Below are positions 13,840 through 20,113 of a stretch of 35,647 nt of DNA, one piece after another. This stretch comes from Phycisphaerae bacterium (lineage in GTDB: Bacteria > Planctomycetota > Phycisphaerae > Sedimentisphaerales > Anaerohalosphaeraceae), in assembly GCA_012517095.1 (NCBI GenBank), contig JAAYVQ010000078.1, positions 1 through 35,647 of the forward strand. Direction: 5' to 3'. The translations under genes and the position numbers were made by a program. Every line of letters begins with the position of its first letter. Position 1 is the stretch's first letter. The notes below the pieces were generated by a model. That model was not told the DNA's origin and did not search any database. It saw only the letters and a program-made list of their open reading frames with translations.

Positions 13840-14499
13840 TCAGCTTTTCTTTCGTTTGGGGGCCGGTTTGGCGGCCTTGCGGGCGGCTTCCGCCGCGGCA
13901 GACATCGCTTCGGCATGGAGGAGGGTCGCAAACTCACGGGCCTGGGCGGCGCTAATCTGCCGGACCAGAAAGCCCTGAATCTCCTCATCGGTCGATTCGG
14001 GGTGCACCAGCCCCTCGGCTTTGAGATAGTCGATCATCACGCGATTGAGGGGGATCGTATGGCCATCGAGAGCGTGCAGGAAACAGTAATCAATCGCGAA
14101 AGGGGTCAGACCGGCGATCAGGTCGAGTTCCTTGCGGGCCTGACGCTTGCCTTGTTCGCAGAGGAATTGCAGACGGAGCTGGTCATGGCGGTTGAAGATA
14201 GCCATCAGACTCATCAGCAACGAAGTCGTGATCGACCGCGCGGAGGCGTCCCGAACGCCCATCGCGTCGAGAACTTCATCCTGACGCGCCACGCGGAGAT
14301 CGTTATCGTCAACGAAGTGCTCATGGATCCTCTTGAGAGCGGCATGGGTCTGAGCGGCGGTCCAGTGTTCCAGGAAGATCCCGTCGATCAGGGCGGGCAA
14401 CGGATCGGCATAGTTCGGCAACGCGATCTTGCCCCGGTCCTGACGCATGCGACGGAAGAGCTTGTCGATCTGTTTGGCGTAATCTTTGCTGTTTTTCAT
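13840..14499 (-). CDS. Uncharacterised HhH-GPD-like protein, probably non-catalytic
   Basis: This is a 219-aa all-helical-looking protein. Residues 125-165 read LDLIAGLTPFAIDYCFLHAL, then IPLNRVMIDYLKAEGLV. This follows the endonuclease III/HhH-GPD pattern (LPGV..TA followed by VDTHV.R...R.GLV), but the catalytic Asp position is Asn152 and no catalytic Lys is evident, nor an iron-sulfur cysteine cluster. The tail from residue 190 is Ala/Lys-rich and ends KPAPKRKKS, as in nucleic-acid-binding proteins. Its ATG overlaps the rbfA stop (ATGA), and hisG follows by 22 bp. The fold assignment is inference. Given its place among translation genes it could bind RNA or DNA, but the function is unknown. 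Confidence 0.7.
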   Translation of the reverse strand: MKNSKDYAKQIDKLFRRMRQDRGKIALPNYADPLPALIDGIFLEHWTAAQTHAALKRIHEHFVDDNDLRVARQDEVLDAMGVRDASARSITTSLLMSLMAIFNRHDQLRLQFLCEQGKRQARKELDLIAGLTPFAIDYCFLHALDGHTIPLNRVMIDYLKAEGLVHPESTDEEIQGFLVRQISAAQAREFATLLHAEAMSAAAEAARKAAKPAPKRKKS

Positions 14500-14977: not shown

Positions 14978-17752
14978 TTAGAGAGTCCGAGCCACTTCCA
15001 CGATTTCAAAGGCCTCGAAGACATCGTCCACCTTGATGTCATCGAATCCGGCGATCTTGATTCCGCACTCAAAACCCGTCTTGACCTCGCGAACATCGTC
15101 CTTGAAGTGCTTGAGCGAGTCGATCTGGCAATTGTCGCGAAGGACAATGTTGTTGCGGATCAGCCGCAGACGGGCCTTCTTGGTCACCAGGCCGCTGGTC
15201 ACATAGCAGCCGGCAATGGTACCAACCGAGGAGATCTTGAAGGTATTGCGGACGACCAGGCGGCCCAGGGTTTTTTCCTGTTTTTCCGGTTCCAGCATGC
15301 CCGTCATGGCGTCCCGAAGGTCGTCGGCGATTTTGTAGATGACATTGTAGAACCGTATATCGACACCTTTGGTTTCGGCGATCTCGCGGACCTTTTCGTC
15401 GGCGACGACATTGAATCCGATGATAATCGCCCCGGACGCCTCGGCCAGAACGACATCTCCCTCGTTGACGCCGCCGACGGCGGCATGCAGGATCTTGATC
15501 TGGACTTCCTTGGCGCTGAGGTCGGTGAGGAACTTGGGCAGCATATCGATGGAACCCTGGACATCGGCTTTGACGATGAGGTTGAGTTCCTTGATCTTTC
15601 CGGCTTCAATCTGGGAGAACAAATTATCCAGGGTGACCTGCGAGCGCTGGGCCAGAGAGCGTTCGCGGGAGAGAATCTTGTTTTCGTCCGAAATGGATTT
15701 GGCCCGGTTAATGTCGTCCAGACAGAAGAACTTGTCTCCGGCCTGCGGGACATCGTCCAGACCCGTAATTCCAACGGCCATCGAACTGGTTGCTTGTTTG
15801 AGCTTTTTTCCCCAGTCGTCGAACAGCGTACGCACTCGCCCGTAGGCAGAGCCGGCCAAAACGATATCGCCTTTGTGCAGGACGCCTTCCTTGACCAGAA
15901 GGGTAGCCATAACACCCTGTGTACTGGTCATTTTGGCCTCGACGACCCAACCCATGGCCGGAATGGTTGAATCGGCTTTATAATCTTTTAGCTCGGCGAT
16001 GTAATCGAGATACTCAATCAGCTCGTCGATACCCTCGCCGGTGACAGCGCTGGTCTTGACAATTTCGGTGTCGCCGCCCCACTCGGTCGGCACCAGACCA
16101 TGCTCGGCCAATTGGCCATAGACGCGATGCAAATCCACGCCTGGAAGGTCGATCTTGTTGATGGCCACGACAATACTGACGCCAGCGGCCTTGGCATGGT
16201 GAATGGCCTCAACGGTCTGGGGCATCACGCCGTCATCGGCGGCAACGACAAGGATGACGATGTCGGTCATGTTCGCGCCGCGGGCTCGCATGGCCGTAAA
16301 GGCCTCATGACCGGGGGTATCAAGGAAGGTGACCTTACGGCCGTTCTTCTCGACATTAAAGGCGCCGATGTGCTGCGTGATTCCGCCCGCCTCGCCGGCG
16401 GCGACGCTGGTCGATCGGATCTTGTCAAGCAGACTGGTTTTGCCGTGGTCCACATGACCCAGAATCGCAACGATCGGCGGTCGTTTGCTCAATTCGGTAC
16501 GGGCACGGGCGGTAAATTCGGCGTCGATCAGTTGCTCGCCGCTTTGTTTTTTCTCGACAATCAATTCGGTACCCATCTCCATGGCGACCAACTCAGCCAC
16601 TTCGGTTGACAGAGTCTGGTTGGCGGTGGCCATGATCCCCTGGGCCAGGAGCTTTTCGATAATCTCGCCGGCTTTGGCAAATAATGCGGCCGACAAATCC
16701 TTGACGGTGATCGGTTCTCGGACAACGGCTTTTTCGGGACGGATGACCGGATGGGTTTCGAGAGTCCGTTTGGCTTCAATCCGCCGCGAAGGCCGGGCCC
16801 GAAGCGATTCGCCTCCTGCCGCGGCCAGACGCGCCCGACGGTCTTCCATGTCCCGTTCGCGAAGCTTTTTGAAATCCTTAGCGCGAATCTCTTCGGAGAC
16901 GGATTCCGACTCCCGCTTGCGCCGGCCCTGAGTTCGATCCCGGATCGGGGCCGCACTTTTGGGGATTGGTCCTTTTGCGGCTCCTCTGTCCTTTCGGCCT
17001 TTTCCAAGAATGGTAGAACCCATTCCCTCCGGCAACAACGGTTCAGAGATGGGCTTGTCGTACTTGGGACGGGGAGTCCGAGGACCCGGGGCCTGCCGCG
17101 GTTTTCGGTGAAATTTTTCGTCCGGTTCGACGGCTTCAACACGGATGACGGTCGGACCGGTCAATTTGGCGGGGCGGGGTTTTTCAAGCATAGGACCTGC
17201 CGGGACAATGACCGGAGGTTTTGTGGGTTCGGGGGTCGCAACGGGCTCGACAAAGGGAACCGTTTCCACCGTCGGCTCGGCGGGCACAACCACTTCGGGG
17301 GCAGGAGATTCCATCGTCGGGCCGGATATCGCCGCTTCGACAACCGGCGTTTCCGCTACCGGCGGGACGGCCGGGGCTTCGACAACCGTAACAGCGGCCG
17401 TCGTCTGATCCGGGATCGTCTCGGATACCTTTGGCTCGACCGGCGTTTCGGCGACGGGCAGTTCGGTGACGGCCGCCGTTGCTTCGGCGGTTGGGGCCCC
17501 TGCTTCCTCTTTGCGCCGGGGTCGGCGGCGAACGCGAACCTTTTCCAGGTCCACCCGGTCGGCCGTCTCTAAAGTCGTGGTGTGGCTCCCTTCGCTGAAC
17601 CATTCACGGATGGTCGCGGCCAGACCGGCGGAGATCGTGGACATGTGATTCTTCACATCCAGATTCTCGGCCTGGCATTTTTCGACGATGGCCTTGCTGG
17701 AAACACCCAGCTCATTGGCCAGAATGAACACTCGTGTTATGGCTTTTGCCAA
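14978..17752 (-). CDS. infB: Translation initiation factor IF-2
   Basis: IF-2 is the GTPase that delivers initiator tRNA to the 30S subunit. The protein has 924 aa. Residues 5-55 form a first IF2_N helix domain, 85-200 a Pro/Ala/Val/Glu-rich low-complexity linker, 200-340 a basic linker, and 345-395 a second IF2_N-like domain. The G domain follows with G1 GHVDHGKT (432-439), G2 GGITQHIG, G3 DTPGHEAF (478 on) and G4 NKID (about 532). The C-terminal domains II-IV follow. The start codon is TTG at 17752 with GGGAG eight nt upstream, and the N-terminus [17 protein letters not shown] fits the family. It lies 50 bp after nusA. Confidence 0.98.
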
Positions 17753-17802: not shown

Positions 17803-19020
17803 TCAGTCGGACGAATTCTGTTCCCTCGCCAGGAAGTTTTCGGCCTGTTTTTTCTCCGGCTCAGAGGAGACCTTTTTGGCTTCCTCCGCCGCCATCGTGA
17901 CGATCCCGTTGGCCAGGGTCTCATCCAGATGCAGTTCTTCTACCAACGGTCCGGCTCCGACTTCTTCCAGGTCCAACACGGAAATGATTCCCAGAGCCAG
18001 CAACTTGTCAACCAGGGCATCTTCGGCACCGGGCACGCGAGCCAGACATGCGCTCATCCGTTCGACTTCCTTATTGTATTCCGGCGGAGTCAGAATGTCG
18101 ATATCCCAGCCGGTTAACCGCGCGGCCAGACGGACATTCTGCCCGTGTTTTCCGATAGCCAAGCTGAGCTGGTCGTCGGTGACAACGACGGTGGCCCGAC
18201 CCAGTTCAAAACACAAGGCGATTTCACTGGCTTCGGCGGGCTTGAGCGCGTTACGAATCAAGCTCTGCGAGGAATCGCTCCAGCGGACGATGTCGATCTT
18301 TTCACCGCCGAGTTCATCGACAATATTCCGAATACGGCTGCCGCGAACCCCCACGCAGGCGCCGACGGCGTCCACTTTGTCATCCACGCTGTGGACGGCG
18401 ATCTTGGTACGGTAGCCGGCTTCACGGGCCAGGGCCTTGATTTCGATCACTCCTTCGGCGACTTCGGGCACTTCCAGCTCGAACAGTCGCCGAATGAAGT
18501 CCGGATGGGTTCGGGACAGAACGATTTTTACCTGGCTGGAGGCATCGCGAACATCGAGAATCAAAGCTCGGATCCGCTCTCCGGGATGATGGGAAGAGCC
18601 GGCGATCTGCTCGACCTTGGGCATCATGCCTTCGACACGGTTGTTGAGATTGACGATCAGCGCGCCGCCTTCGTATCGGCCGACGATCCCGTTGACGATT
18701 TCTCCCTTGCGCTTGACATATTCGGAAAAGATACTGTCCCGTTCGTCGGCCTTGATCTTCTGGATCATGACCTGCTTTGCGGTTTGGGCGGGGATACGAC
18801 CCAGACGGCGAATGTCCAGTTCCGCGCCATCCTTGAACGCCCGGATATCGCCGGTCGCCCGATCGATCGTAACCGTGATATCGCTTTCGGGATTCTGGAT
18901 GCCGAAATGCTTTCGGGCGGCCGACACCATCGCCGATTCCAAATCCAGAAATATCGACTCTTTGTCGATATTTTTATCCCGAGCGATATTGTCCACGATC
19001 CGTATCAATTCCTGATTCAT
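17803..19020 (-). CDS. nusA: Transcription termination/antitermination factor NusA
   Basis: NusA binds RNA polymerase and nascent RNA, promoting pausing, intrinsic termination or antitermination. The protein has 405 aa. The N-terminal domain starts MNQELIRIVDNIARDKNID, followed by an S1 domain (GIVGRYEGGALIVNL), KH1 and KH2 (GVRGSRIRNIVDELGGEK, and AIGKHGQNVRLAARLTGWDI), and a single C-terminal helix-hairpin-helix-like unit (LLALGIISVLDLEEV). The gene leads the nusA-infB-rbfA run. No rimP gene lies directly upstream, where it is often found. In its place is a long structured leader ending in a terminator-like hairpin 23 bp before the ATG. AAAGGGA and AAGGGA precede the start. Confidence 0.97.
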   Translation of the reverse strand: MNQELIRIVDNIARDKNIDKESIFLDLESAMVSAARKHFGIQNPESDITVTIDRATGDIRAFKDGAELDIRRLGRIPAQTAKQVMIQKIKADERDSIFSEYVKRKGEIVNGIVGRYEGGALIVNLNNRVEGMMPKVEQIAGSSHHPGERIRALILDVRDASSQVKIVLSRTHPDFIRRLFELEVPEVAEGVIEIKALAREAGYRTKIAVHSVDDKVDAVGACVGVRGSRIRNIVDELGGEKIDIVRWSDSSQSLIRNALKPAEASEIALCFELGRATVVVTDDQLSLAIGKHGQNVRLAARLTGWDIDILTPPEYNKEVERMSACLARVPGAEDALVDKLLALGIISVLDLEEVGAGPLVEELHLDETLANGIVTMAAEEAKKVSSEPEKKQAENFLAREQNSSD

Positions 19021-19043
19021 GATCCCTTGTTCCCTTTAACAAT

Positions 19044-19075
19044 AAAAAAAGTGGAACCCTTCAGGATACCACTTT
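19044..19075 (-). terminator. Terminator-like hairpin directly upstream of nusA
   Basis: On the minus strand AAAGTGG (19075-19069) pairs with CCACTTT (19054-19048). Four further pairs lie inside a single mismatch around a TGAA loop, and the total T-run is seven. It ends 23 bp before the nusA start and downstream of the promoter, so nusA expression needs read-through. Confidence 0.75.
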
Positions 19076-19209
19076 CATCCGCACCCATCTCGGCGGTCGA
19101 ACAAGCCCGGAATCGCCGATCAAACCATGATCGGATCCTCCAGCCGCCCATTCAACGGATGCAGCATCCCTGAAGTATCTAAAAAACGCCGTTTCATCGA
19201 CATAGGCGC

Positions 19210-19257
19210 AAAAAGACAGTGCCGCAACAACTTGGGCCTACCCAACGAATGCACTGT
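19210..19257 (-). terminator. Second terminator-like hairpin in the nusA leader
   Basis: ACAGTGC (19257-19251) pairs with GCACTGT (19222-19216) and encloses TTGGG/CCCAA with a TAGG loop; C and five T follow. The 5' arm lies inside the small ORF at 19276-19238, so a ribosome on that ORF would block it. The internal loop of 5 by 9 nt makes it a weaker terminator than the one at 19044-19075. Confidence 0.45.
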
Positions 19258-19276
19258 ACAACAATCCTATCATCAT
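19238..19276 (-). CDS. Possible leader peptide of the nusA operon
   Basis: This is a 12-codon ORF encoding MMIGLLYSAFVG, with GGAAGG exactly six nt before ATG. Its stop codon TAG lies in the loop of the TTGGG/CCCAA hairpin, and its codons 7-9 form the 5' arm of the longer stem. The spacing and ribosome site are good for such a short frame, but chance is possible. No run of one amino acid that would act as a sensor is seen, although two Leu codons are TTG. Confidence 0.35.
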   Translation of the reverse strand: MMIGLLYSAFVG

Positions 19277-19319
19277 CTTGCACCTTCCACGAACTCATTT
19301 CCCGTTTCCGAACATAGCC

Positions 19320-19347
19320 ATTATAGACGGAAATTTCTTCCTGTCAA
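19320..19347 (-). promoter_or_regulatory. Near-consensus sigma70 promoter of the nusA operon
   Basis: On the minus strand a perfect TTGACA (19347-19342) and a perfect TATAAT (19325-19320) are separated by 16 bp. The predicted start is about 19313, roughly 290 nt upstream of nusA. This is the strongest promoter match in the window, as expected for a transcription/translation operon, and it makes downstream attenuation plausible. Confidence 0.85.
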
Positions 19348-19393: not shown

Positions 19394-20113
19394 CTATGGA
19401 AACGCCCCGGCAGGTGCAAAATCGAGAATCAGTTTGTGGTTTTGGACCTGGACTCCCGTCAGTCGGATAAACCGCTTATACGGCGGAACGGGAAAAACAG
19501 GGTCAAAAGGGGTATTTTTCAGGAAGGCCGCAGCGGTATCCCGAACCCACGGGTCCTTGTAGAATTGCATCTGGTGGTCAAAAATCTTGCCTCCAATAGC
19601 CCTGGCAGGTCCGGTAATATTGATGGCTCCGGCTTTGATTTTGAGCAAATTCAGCCACAAATTTCCCTGTTCATCTATTTTCGGCTGCGCAATCATGCTG
19701 ACGATGACCGGAAAACCGACATCAACGGCCCCCATCAGATAGATGGTGTCCTGGGCAAAGACGATGGAGGGAGCTGAAAAGGTCACCCCATTGAGGTTGA
19801 TCGGCCAGGACCAACCGAGGTTTTGTTCCTGGACGATGATTTCGTTAAGACCCGTCTGATCCACAATAATCCGGAATGGTTTATCGAGTTGAATCTGATT
19901 GTTGAAGCTGGGGGCGAGTTCATGGGTCAGGTAGGAACTGACTTCCTGGTTGGATTGCTGGGGAATGGGATGATATTCCGGGGGTCGGGCCGTAAACAGC
20001 TTCAACAGGATCAGGACGGCCACCACCGGAATTCCGATGAGGGACACGATGATCCATATCCTTCGCGATCGTGTTCGTTTTGGTTTCAATTTCGTCGATC
20101 CGTCAAAATGCAT
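19394..20113 (-). CDS. Single-pass membrane protein of unknown function
   Basis: The protein is 239 aa. A basic N-terminal segment (KLKPKRTRSRR) precedes one membrane helix at about residues 23-43 (IWIIVSLIGIPVVAVLILL), so most of the protein probably lies outside the cytoplasm. The remainder looks beta-rich, with segments such as GVTFSAPSIVF and GFPVIVSMIAQPKID. In layout it resembles DUF2140-type membrane-anchored proteins that have a beta-rich outer domain, but I cannot assign a family. No ribosome site is clear before the ATG. It ends 47 bp before the nusA promoter on the same strand and is divergent from pyrF. Confidence 0.75.
   Translation of the reverse strand: MHFDGSTKLKPKRTRSRRIWIIVSLIGIPVVAVLILLKLFTARPPEYHPIPQQSNQEVSSYLTHELAPSFNNQIQLDKPFRIIVDQTGLNEIIVQEQNLGWSWPINLNGVTFSAPSIVFAQDTIYLMGAVDVGFPVIVSMIAQPKIDEQGNLWLNLLKIKAGAINITGPARAIGGKIFDHQMQFYKDPWVRDTAAAFLKNTPFDPVFPVPPYKRFIRLTGVQVQNHKLILDFAPAGAFP

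Follow-up and report, generated by a model that had tools for sequence, protein, structure and literature searches.

A putative ribosome-read attenuator with a start-stop open reading frame before nusA-infB in the planctomycete order Sedimentisphaerales

The window, which is the whole stretch of 35,647 nucleotides analysed here, comes from a genome of the class Phycisphaerae (Planctomycetota, order Sedimentisphaerales) and carries a nusA-infB operon preceded by a long leader. This leader contains two micro-ORFs (uORF1 and uORF2) and two mutually exclusive structures, a terminator and an antiterminator. From the complementarity and conservation of these parts we propose, with moderate confidence, that it is a transcription attenuator of nusA-infB that ribosomes read through their occupancy of the micro-ORFs.

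The nusA leader and its operon

The leader precedes the run nusA-infB-rbfA-ORF-hisG-yebC, in which nusA, infB, rbfA, hisG and yebC are confirmed with Pfam, as a sequence-only reading of the same DNA had named them. The ORF between rbfA and hisG (13840-14499, minus strand) has no Pfam match, and the same is true of an ORF upstream of the promoter (19394-20113, minus strand). That reading had also remarked on the absence of rimP from the locus; this absence extends to the whole genome and to its relatives, as RimP (PF02576) is found in 0 of 31 genomes (the window's own and 30 relatives) and the control genomes are positive. The rimP gene seems to be missing from the whole order Sedimentisphaerales. 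No tRNA or tmRNA was found in the window.

The promoter, described earlier as near-perfect, matches the consensus at all 12 of 12 positions and is the only one that does so within a 3.5-kb region, where 5 sites of at least 9/12 are found versus 1.8 expected. Of 115 leaders in the order, 45 have a perfect 12/12 promoter 5' of uORF1. In the window the leader extends over 293 nt, from about 19313 to 19021 on the minus strand, and it is present in one copy in its own genome. Its long and structured character, also claimed by the first reading, agrees with a predicted fold of -102.6 kcal/mol versus -88.9 +/- 4.7 kcal/mol for shuffled sequences (z = -2.9; 2/200). The seven-T terminator which had been placed 23 nt before the ATG of nusA (19020) is indeed found there, at 19075-19044. 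A simple terminator scan missed this hairpin, which has an internal mismatch, and called another at 19203-19186. In the middle of the leader, at 19209-19182 on the minus strand, a hairpin GCGCC...GGCGTTTTTT is followed by six T's and looks like a weak early terminator; it overlaps with the alternative hairpin of Table 1, in which the antiterminator arm is hidden. The features of the leader are collected in Table 1.

Table 1. Features of the nusA leader and of the genes that follow it, in the order of transcription
Feature	Position	Strand	Basis
Promoter TTGACA (19347-19342), 16 nt, TATAAT (19325-19320)	19320..19347	-	12/12 consensus match
Transcription start (putative)	~19313	-	position of the promoter
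Shine-Dalgarno (SD) of uORF1, GGAAGG, 6 nt 5' of its ATG	19283..19288	-	sequence
uORF1, putative leader peptide MMIGLLYSAFVG-stop	19238..19276	-	conserved across the order
Hairpin P1: ACAGTGC (19257-19251, inside uORF1) with GCACTGT (19222-19216)	19216..19257	-	own-versus-cross pairing
Alternative hairpin, hiding the antiterminator arm when the terminator forms	19162..19191	-	folding only
Antiterminator 5' arm CTTCAGG, complementary to 19065-19059	19169..19175	-	near-invariant helix, own-versus-cross pairing
Stem P2, 5' arm	19155..19168	-	covariation
SD of uORF2, GGAGG, 8 nt 5' of its ATG	19137..19141	-	sequence; strong SD order-wide
uORF2, minimal ORF ATG-GTT-TGA (M-V-stop)	19120..19128	-	micro-ORF counts versus shuffles
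Stem P2, 3' arm (approximate limits)	19077..19090	-	defined structure
Intrinsic terminator AAAGTGGTATCC-TGAA-GGGTTCCACTTTTTTT	19044..19075	-	11 pairs, UGAA loop, seven T's
Antiterminator 3' partner CCTGAAG, shared with the terminator upper stem and loop	19059..19065	-	complementarity
nusA Shine-Dalgarno, AAGGG	19028-19024	-	sequence
nusA, first gene controlled	17803..19020	-	Pfam NusA_N and KH_5; ATG at 19020
infB (IF2), 3' of nusA, same run	14978..17752	-	Pfam IF-2 and IF2_N

Conservation of the leader across the order

The order was sampled with 161 genomes, 149 of which have a NusA match, and 144 nusA upstream regions were read. Nearly all of these regions, which come from about 140 genomes, have a common layout of promoter, uORF1, P1, antiterminator arm, P2, uORF2 and terminator; uORF1 overlaps its hairpin, and the SD and the minimal ORF lie in the loop of P2. 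A covariance model was made from 19 sequences that belong to the window's family (labelled f1). It matches 71 of the 161 genomes, once in each, always at the nusA leader and nowhere else, and within that family it matches 34 of 39 genomes. Conservation of the leader and its terminator in relatives, a check which the sequence-only reading had named, is strong across the order; covariation, which it had also named, is positive for the long stem P2, but not for every helix. Rfam 15 has no family for the window, the leader or 14 loci: the window and the loci have no match at the gathering score, and no relevant match is present at E up to 10. The reading of the element as mainly an independent small RNA was rejected, as it contains an antiterminator and all its occurrences lie directly before nusA. 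In one genome of the sample (L034), an ORF with the look of a GIY-YIG endonuclease is inserted between the leader terminator and nusA.

Terminator and relation to the rimP leader

Nearly all upstream regions of the order end before nusA with a terminator of the form GAAGTGG...CCACTTTTTT, which is conserved in sequence, beyond shape alone, and whose helix in f1 is paired in 99.5% of cells. A terminator before rimP-nusA-infB has been described as the most ubiquitous attenuator, generally without a visible antiterminator, and NusA has been suggested as its regulator (Naville and Gautheret 2010, PMC2965389). The window terminator belongs with this rimP-leader attenuator, with which it shares the operon, the position of an intrinsic terminator shortly before the first gene and the conservation of the terminator stem. 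The order keeps a changed form, to which it adds the antiterminator and the micro-ORFs. The window stem is GTGGTATCC...GGGTTCCAC, unlike the GGGc...gCCC of the rimP leader, its operon does not have rimP as first gene, and, unlike the general rimP leader, it has an antiterminator (CTTCAGG/CCTGAAG), a covarying P2 and two micro-ORFs. Phylum relatives outside the class (e.g. L190 and L203) have short leaders with the GGGc...gCCC stem of the rimP leader.

The likeness to a leader for which NusA has been proposed as regulator, the conservation of the terminator in sequence and not in shape alone, and the NusA autorepression of the operon in E. coli (Plumbridge 1985, in the citation of it by PMC2965389) all speak for a NusA feedback, in which NusA stimulates termination at the hairpin or binds the leader in favour of the terminator, and the micro-ORFs are secondary. 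We consider this explanation rather unlikely: it leaves unexplained the conserved antiterminator, uORF1 and the start-stop ORF, all of which speak for a control that responds to ribosomes, and the terminator sequence may equally be conserved because it has to pair with the antiterminator arm. The attenuator itself, as proposed in the sequence-only reading, is upheld by the terminator found throughout the order and by the existence of an exclusive antiterminator; that reading had missed the antiterminator and the two micro-ORFs.

Antiterminator and stem P2

The antiterminator and the terminator are mutually exclusive, because both use nucleotides 19059-19065. The antiterminator arm fits the terminator of its own leader better than those of relatives (own-versus-cross p = 0.009 in f1, 5e-5 in f7 and 5e-4 in f2), and negative-control pairs have no own-versus-cross preference. 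The pairing register differs between families and the complementarity is kept. The partner of the corresponding arm in f7 (GTTTCTGCTTC) and f2 is the terminator 5' arm (GAAGTGGAAAC). In f1 the antiterminator helix is paired in 99.2% of cells, and it shows no covariation because it is almost invariant. When transcripts are cut before the terminator 3' arm, the antiterminator is predicted in 59% of f1 leaders and in 92% of f7 and f2 leaders. A clear antiterminator is lacking in the family f5 and in some members of f4.

By the defined-structure count in f1, compensatory changes are seen at 10 of the 14 pairs of stem P2, and the structure covariation score in this family is higher than those of 500/500 shuffles and of all slid registers. 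Own-versus-cross pairing also supports P2 in f1 (p = 7e-6) and f7 (p = 1e-4), and is not significant in f2. A tree-based scan of f7 on a MAFFT alignment gave no covarying pair below E = 1, probably owing to misalignment of variable helices, and after this null result own-versus-cross pairing and the defined-structure count were used instead. P2 is unsupported on the f7 alignment, and the f7 antiterminator varies only by G-U changes. By own-versus-cross pairing, no coevolution was found for the anti-antiterminator hairpin, and coevolution of the hairpin over the start-stop SD is weak or none.

Outside the order, an automatic test found a clear antiterminator in one f15 genome only (a 12-nt perfect complement, 0/300 shuffles). 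In four f18 genomes a complementarity TTTTCGAGC/GCTCGAAAA, which the automatic anchor missed, is seen by eye.

uORF1 and hairpin P1

The first micro-ORF has 9-14 codons across the order and is preceded by an SD. Its start and stop are kept, the identity of the stop varies (TAG, TAA, TGA), and its peptide follows the pattern M..TG..SRA.A* in most of f1 and M.LTGLANSA.* in f7, the largest family. Among close relatives, pN/pS is 0.44 in f7 and 0.83 in f1; the f2 value, 0.47, comes from only 5 pairs. Hairpin P1 has own-versus-cross p values of 4e-4 in f7 and 0.016 in f1, and is not significant in f2.

Leader-peptide attenuators are known from trp, his, ilvB and the topAI uORF (PMC10272879, PMC12121999), and the leader resembles them in having a short uORF with an SD and alternative terminator and antiterminator stems. 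It differs from them in that uORF2 has zero to three codons after its ATG, for which reason the signal of uORF2 cannot be codon-specific stalling, and in that the controlled genes encode NusA and IF2. The role of such a leader peptide could be assigned to uORF1, which would then be the sensor, with ribosomes stalling on it in response to an amino acid, an antibiotic or another signal, and uORF2 only tuning the switch. The conserved peptide sequence (TG..SRA or TGLANSA), its pN/pS of 0.44 in f7 and the position of the last uORF1 codons within P1 are consistent with this. We consider it improbable, given that uORF1 has no run of one codon kind and lies 60-100 nt from the antiterminator arm, that folding with uORF1 blocked gives no consistent change, that its pN/pS is 0.83 in the window's own family, and that other orders with the minimal ORF have no short uORF1.

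In other orders of the class (L156, L158, L163-L165, L182 and L184), a gene for a UgpC/MalK-type ABC ATPase has its 3' end immediately upstream of the nusA leader, and this end occupies the place of uORF1. The C-terminus of the ABC ATPase (HALA*, HAIA*) and a hairpin at its stop codon resemble uORF1 (SRAFA*) of the window's order, and the arm that can pair with the terminator is located within the ABC ATPase gene in f15 and f18. On the similarity of the C-terminus, one may guess that uORF1 is a relic of such a gene.

uORF2, the start-stop ORF

The second micro-ORF lies within the loop enclosed by P2, 33-134 nt 5' of the terminator across the order. In the window's family it has an ATG and one to three codons. 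A pure start-stop form (ATG followed by TAG, TAA or TGA) is called in 72 of 73 scored f7 genomes and in 11 of 12 f2 genomes, by an ORF caller that favours short ORFs behind a strong SD, for which reason a shuffled control matters. Of 131 leaders, 115 contain an unbiased pattern (GGAGG, GGAG or GAGG, 4-9 nt, ATG, at most 3 codons, stop), where dinucleotide shuffles give 2.5, and 84 contain its zero-codon form, where shuffles give 0.35. On a tree made from nusA itself, the identity of the stop has changed at least 18 times among the start-stop genomes. Only 1 of 9 single-base changes of TAG and 2 of 9 of TAA keep a stop, so that RNA-level constraint alone is an unlikely cause of its conservation. 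In a single f2 genome (L044) the start codon of uORF2 is lost (GGAGGATAGGCTATAAGAG) and promoter, uORF1 and terminator are kept.

Other orders of the class also have an M-x-stop ORF behind an SD, with 20 of 40 genomes versus 2.4 expected from shuffles; the families concerned are chiefly f9, f10, f18-f22 and f24. There is no excess of such ORFs outside the class (1 of 20 genomes versus 0.7 expected).

Start-stop sites, which have an ATG followed by a stop at once or after one codon, as here, have been detected in E. coli and Campylobacter with ribosome profiling, and a regulatory potential was suggested for them (PMC11955535). The profiled sites are individual ones, in Campylobacter out of frame inside genes (PMC11955535), unlike the ORF of the window, which is order-wide (as M-x-stop in much of the class) and belongs to one operon and to the inside of an attenuator. 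The two-codon minigene of axe-txe is cis-acting and affects translation or stability of the toxin gene (PMC8708949). It is likewise a minimal ORF that acts in a leader or operon context, but it has no terminator switch and is not conserved across an order. A literature search outside subscription journals found no description of a start-stop attenuator, an order-wide start-stop ORF or a planctomycete nusA leader, and the start-stop part of the attenuator appears to be undescribed.

The axe-txe minigene, which is thought to raise mRNA stability in cis (PMC8708949), suggests that the start-stop ORF could serve instead for ribosome parking, with protection of the mRNA against RNase or Rho, or for the loading of ribosomes on nusA, and not set the terminator. 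This is doubtful, as the minimal ORF in the order is enclosed by the stem linking the antiterminator to the terminator, 33-134 nt before the terminator and away from the ribosome-binding site of nusA. Part of uORF2 is in local hairpins (UGUAG/CUACA in f7 and GGGCAU/AUGCCC in some f1), which would agree with an untranslated ORF whose ATG-stop is a piece of an RNA structural motif. We hold this to be very improbable: the local hairpin shows little coevolution, SD, ATG and stop persist in families that differ in the surrounding structure, and all three stop codons occur, with the many changes counted above.

Proposed mechanism

In the attenuator that we propose, the strong promoter would give a leader of about 290 nt ending in the intrinsic terminator. 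Pairing of the arm 19175-19169 with 19065-19059, which P2 would bring together, would block this terminator. The predicted energies of the two states lie close together (a difference of 0.4 kcal/mol in the window), and therefore a small input could decide between them. The inputs would be ribosomes on the two micro-ORFs, the occupancy of which would choose terminator or antiterminator: uORF1, whose last codons form one arm of P1, and, behind a strong SD in the P2 loop, the minimal or zero-codon uORF2.

We infer that both micro-ORFs are translated, that their occupancy sets the switch and that initiation is what is sensed. Since uORF2 offers few codons or none, ribosome occupancy there would depend on initiation (and release); a start-stop ORF needs these two steps without elongation, and its occupancy would report initiation capacity. 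Initiation capacity is what the IF2 of the operon supplies, and sensing of initiation would suit an operon that encodes IF2. More tentatively, and as a possibility that we hold with less than even confidence, the zero- or one-codon ORF, found order-wide and in much of the class, may be an initiation sensor, in which an initiating, non-elongating ribosome sets the switch of the IF2/NusA operon.

The sign of the switch is a guess: occupancy of uORF2 may favour termination, as a negative feedback, which seems only slightly likelier than the opposite. A modelled ribosome footprint on uORF2 of the window tips the balance in favour of termination, by +2.6 kcal/mol, and in relatives such footprints give shifts in both directions, with no consistent sign.

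Significance

Known ribosome-mediated attenuators read elongation, by the stalling of ribosomes at certain codons of a leader peptide. An ORF without sense codons can report only initiation and release, and here it stands before genes of an initiation factor and a transcription factor. If the proposal is true, it would be, to our knowledge, the first attenuator to measure initiation instead of elongation, and it would link initiation capacity directly to the supply of IF2 and NusA. Start-stop sites, which are mostly seen as scattered profiling peaks, could then be selected regulatory elements. The leader also presents the widespread and unexplained rimP/nusA leader terminator in an elaborated form, in a lineage without rimP.
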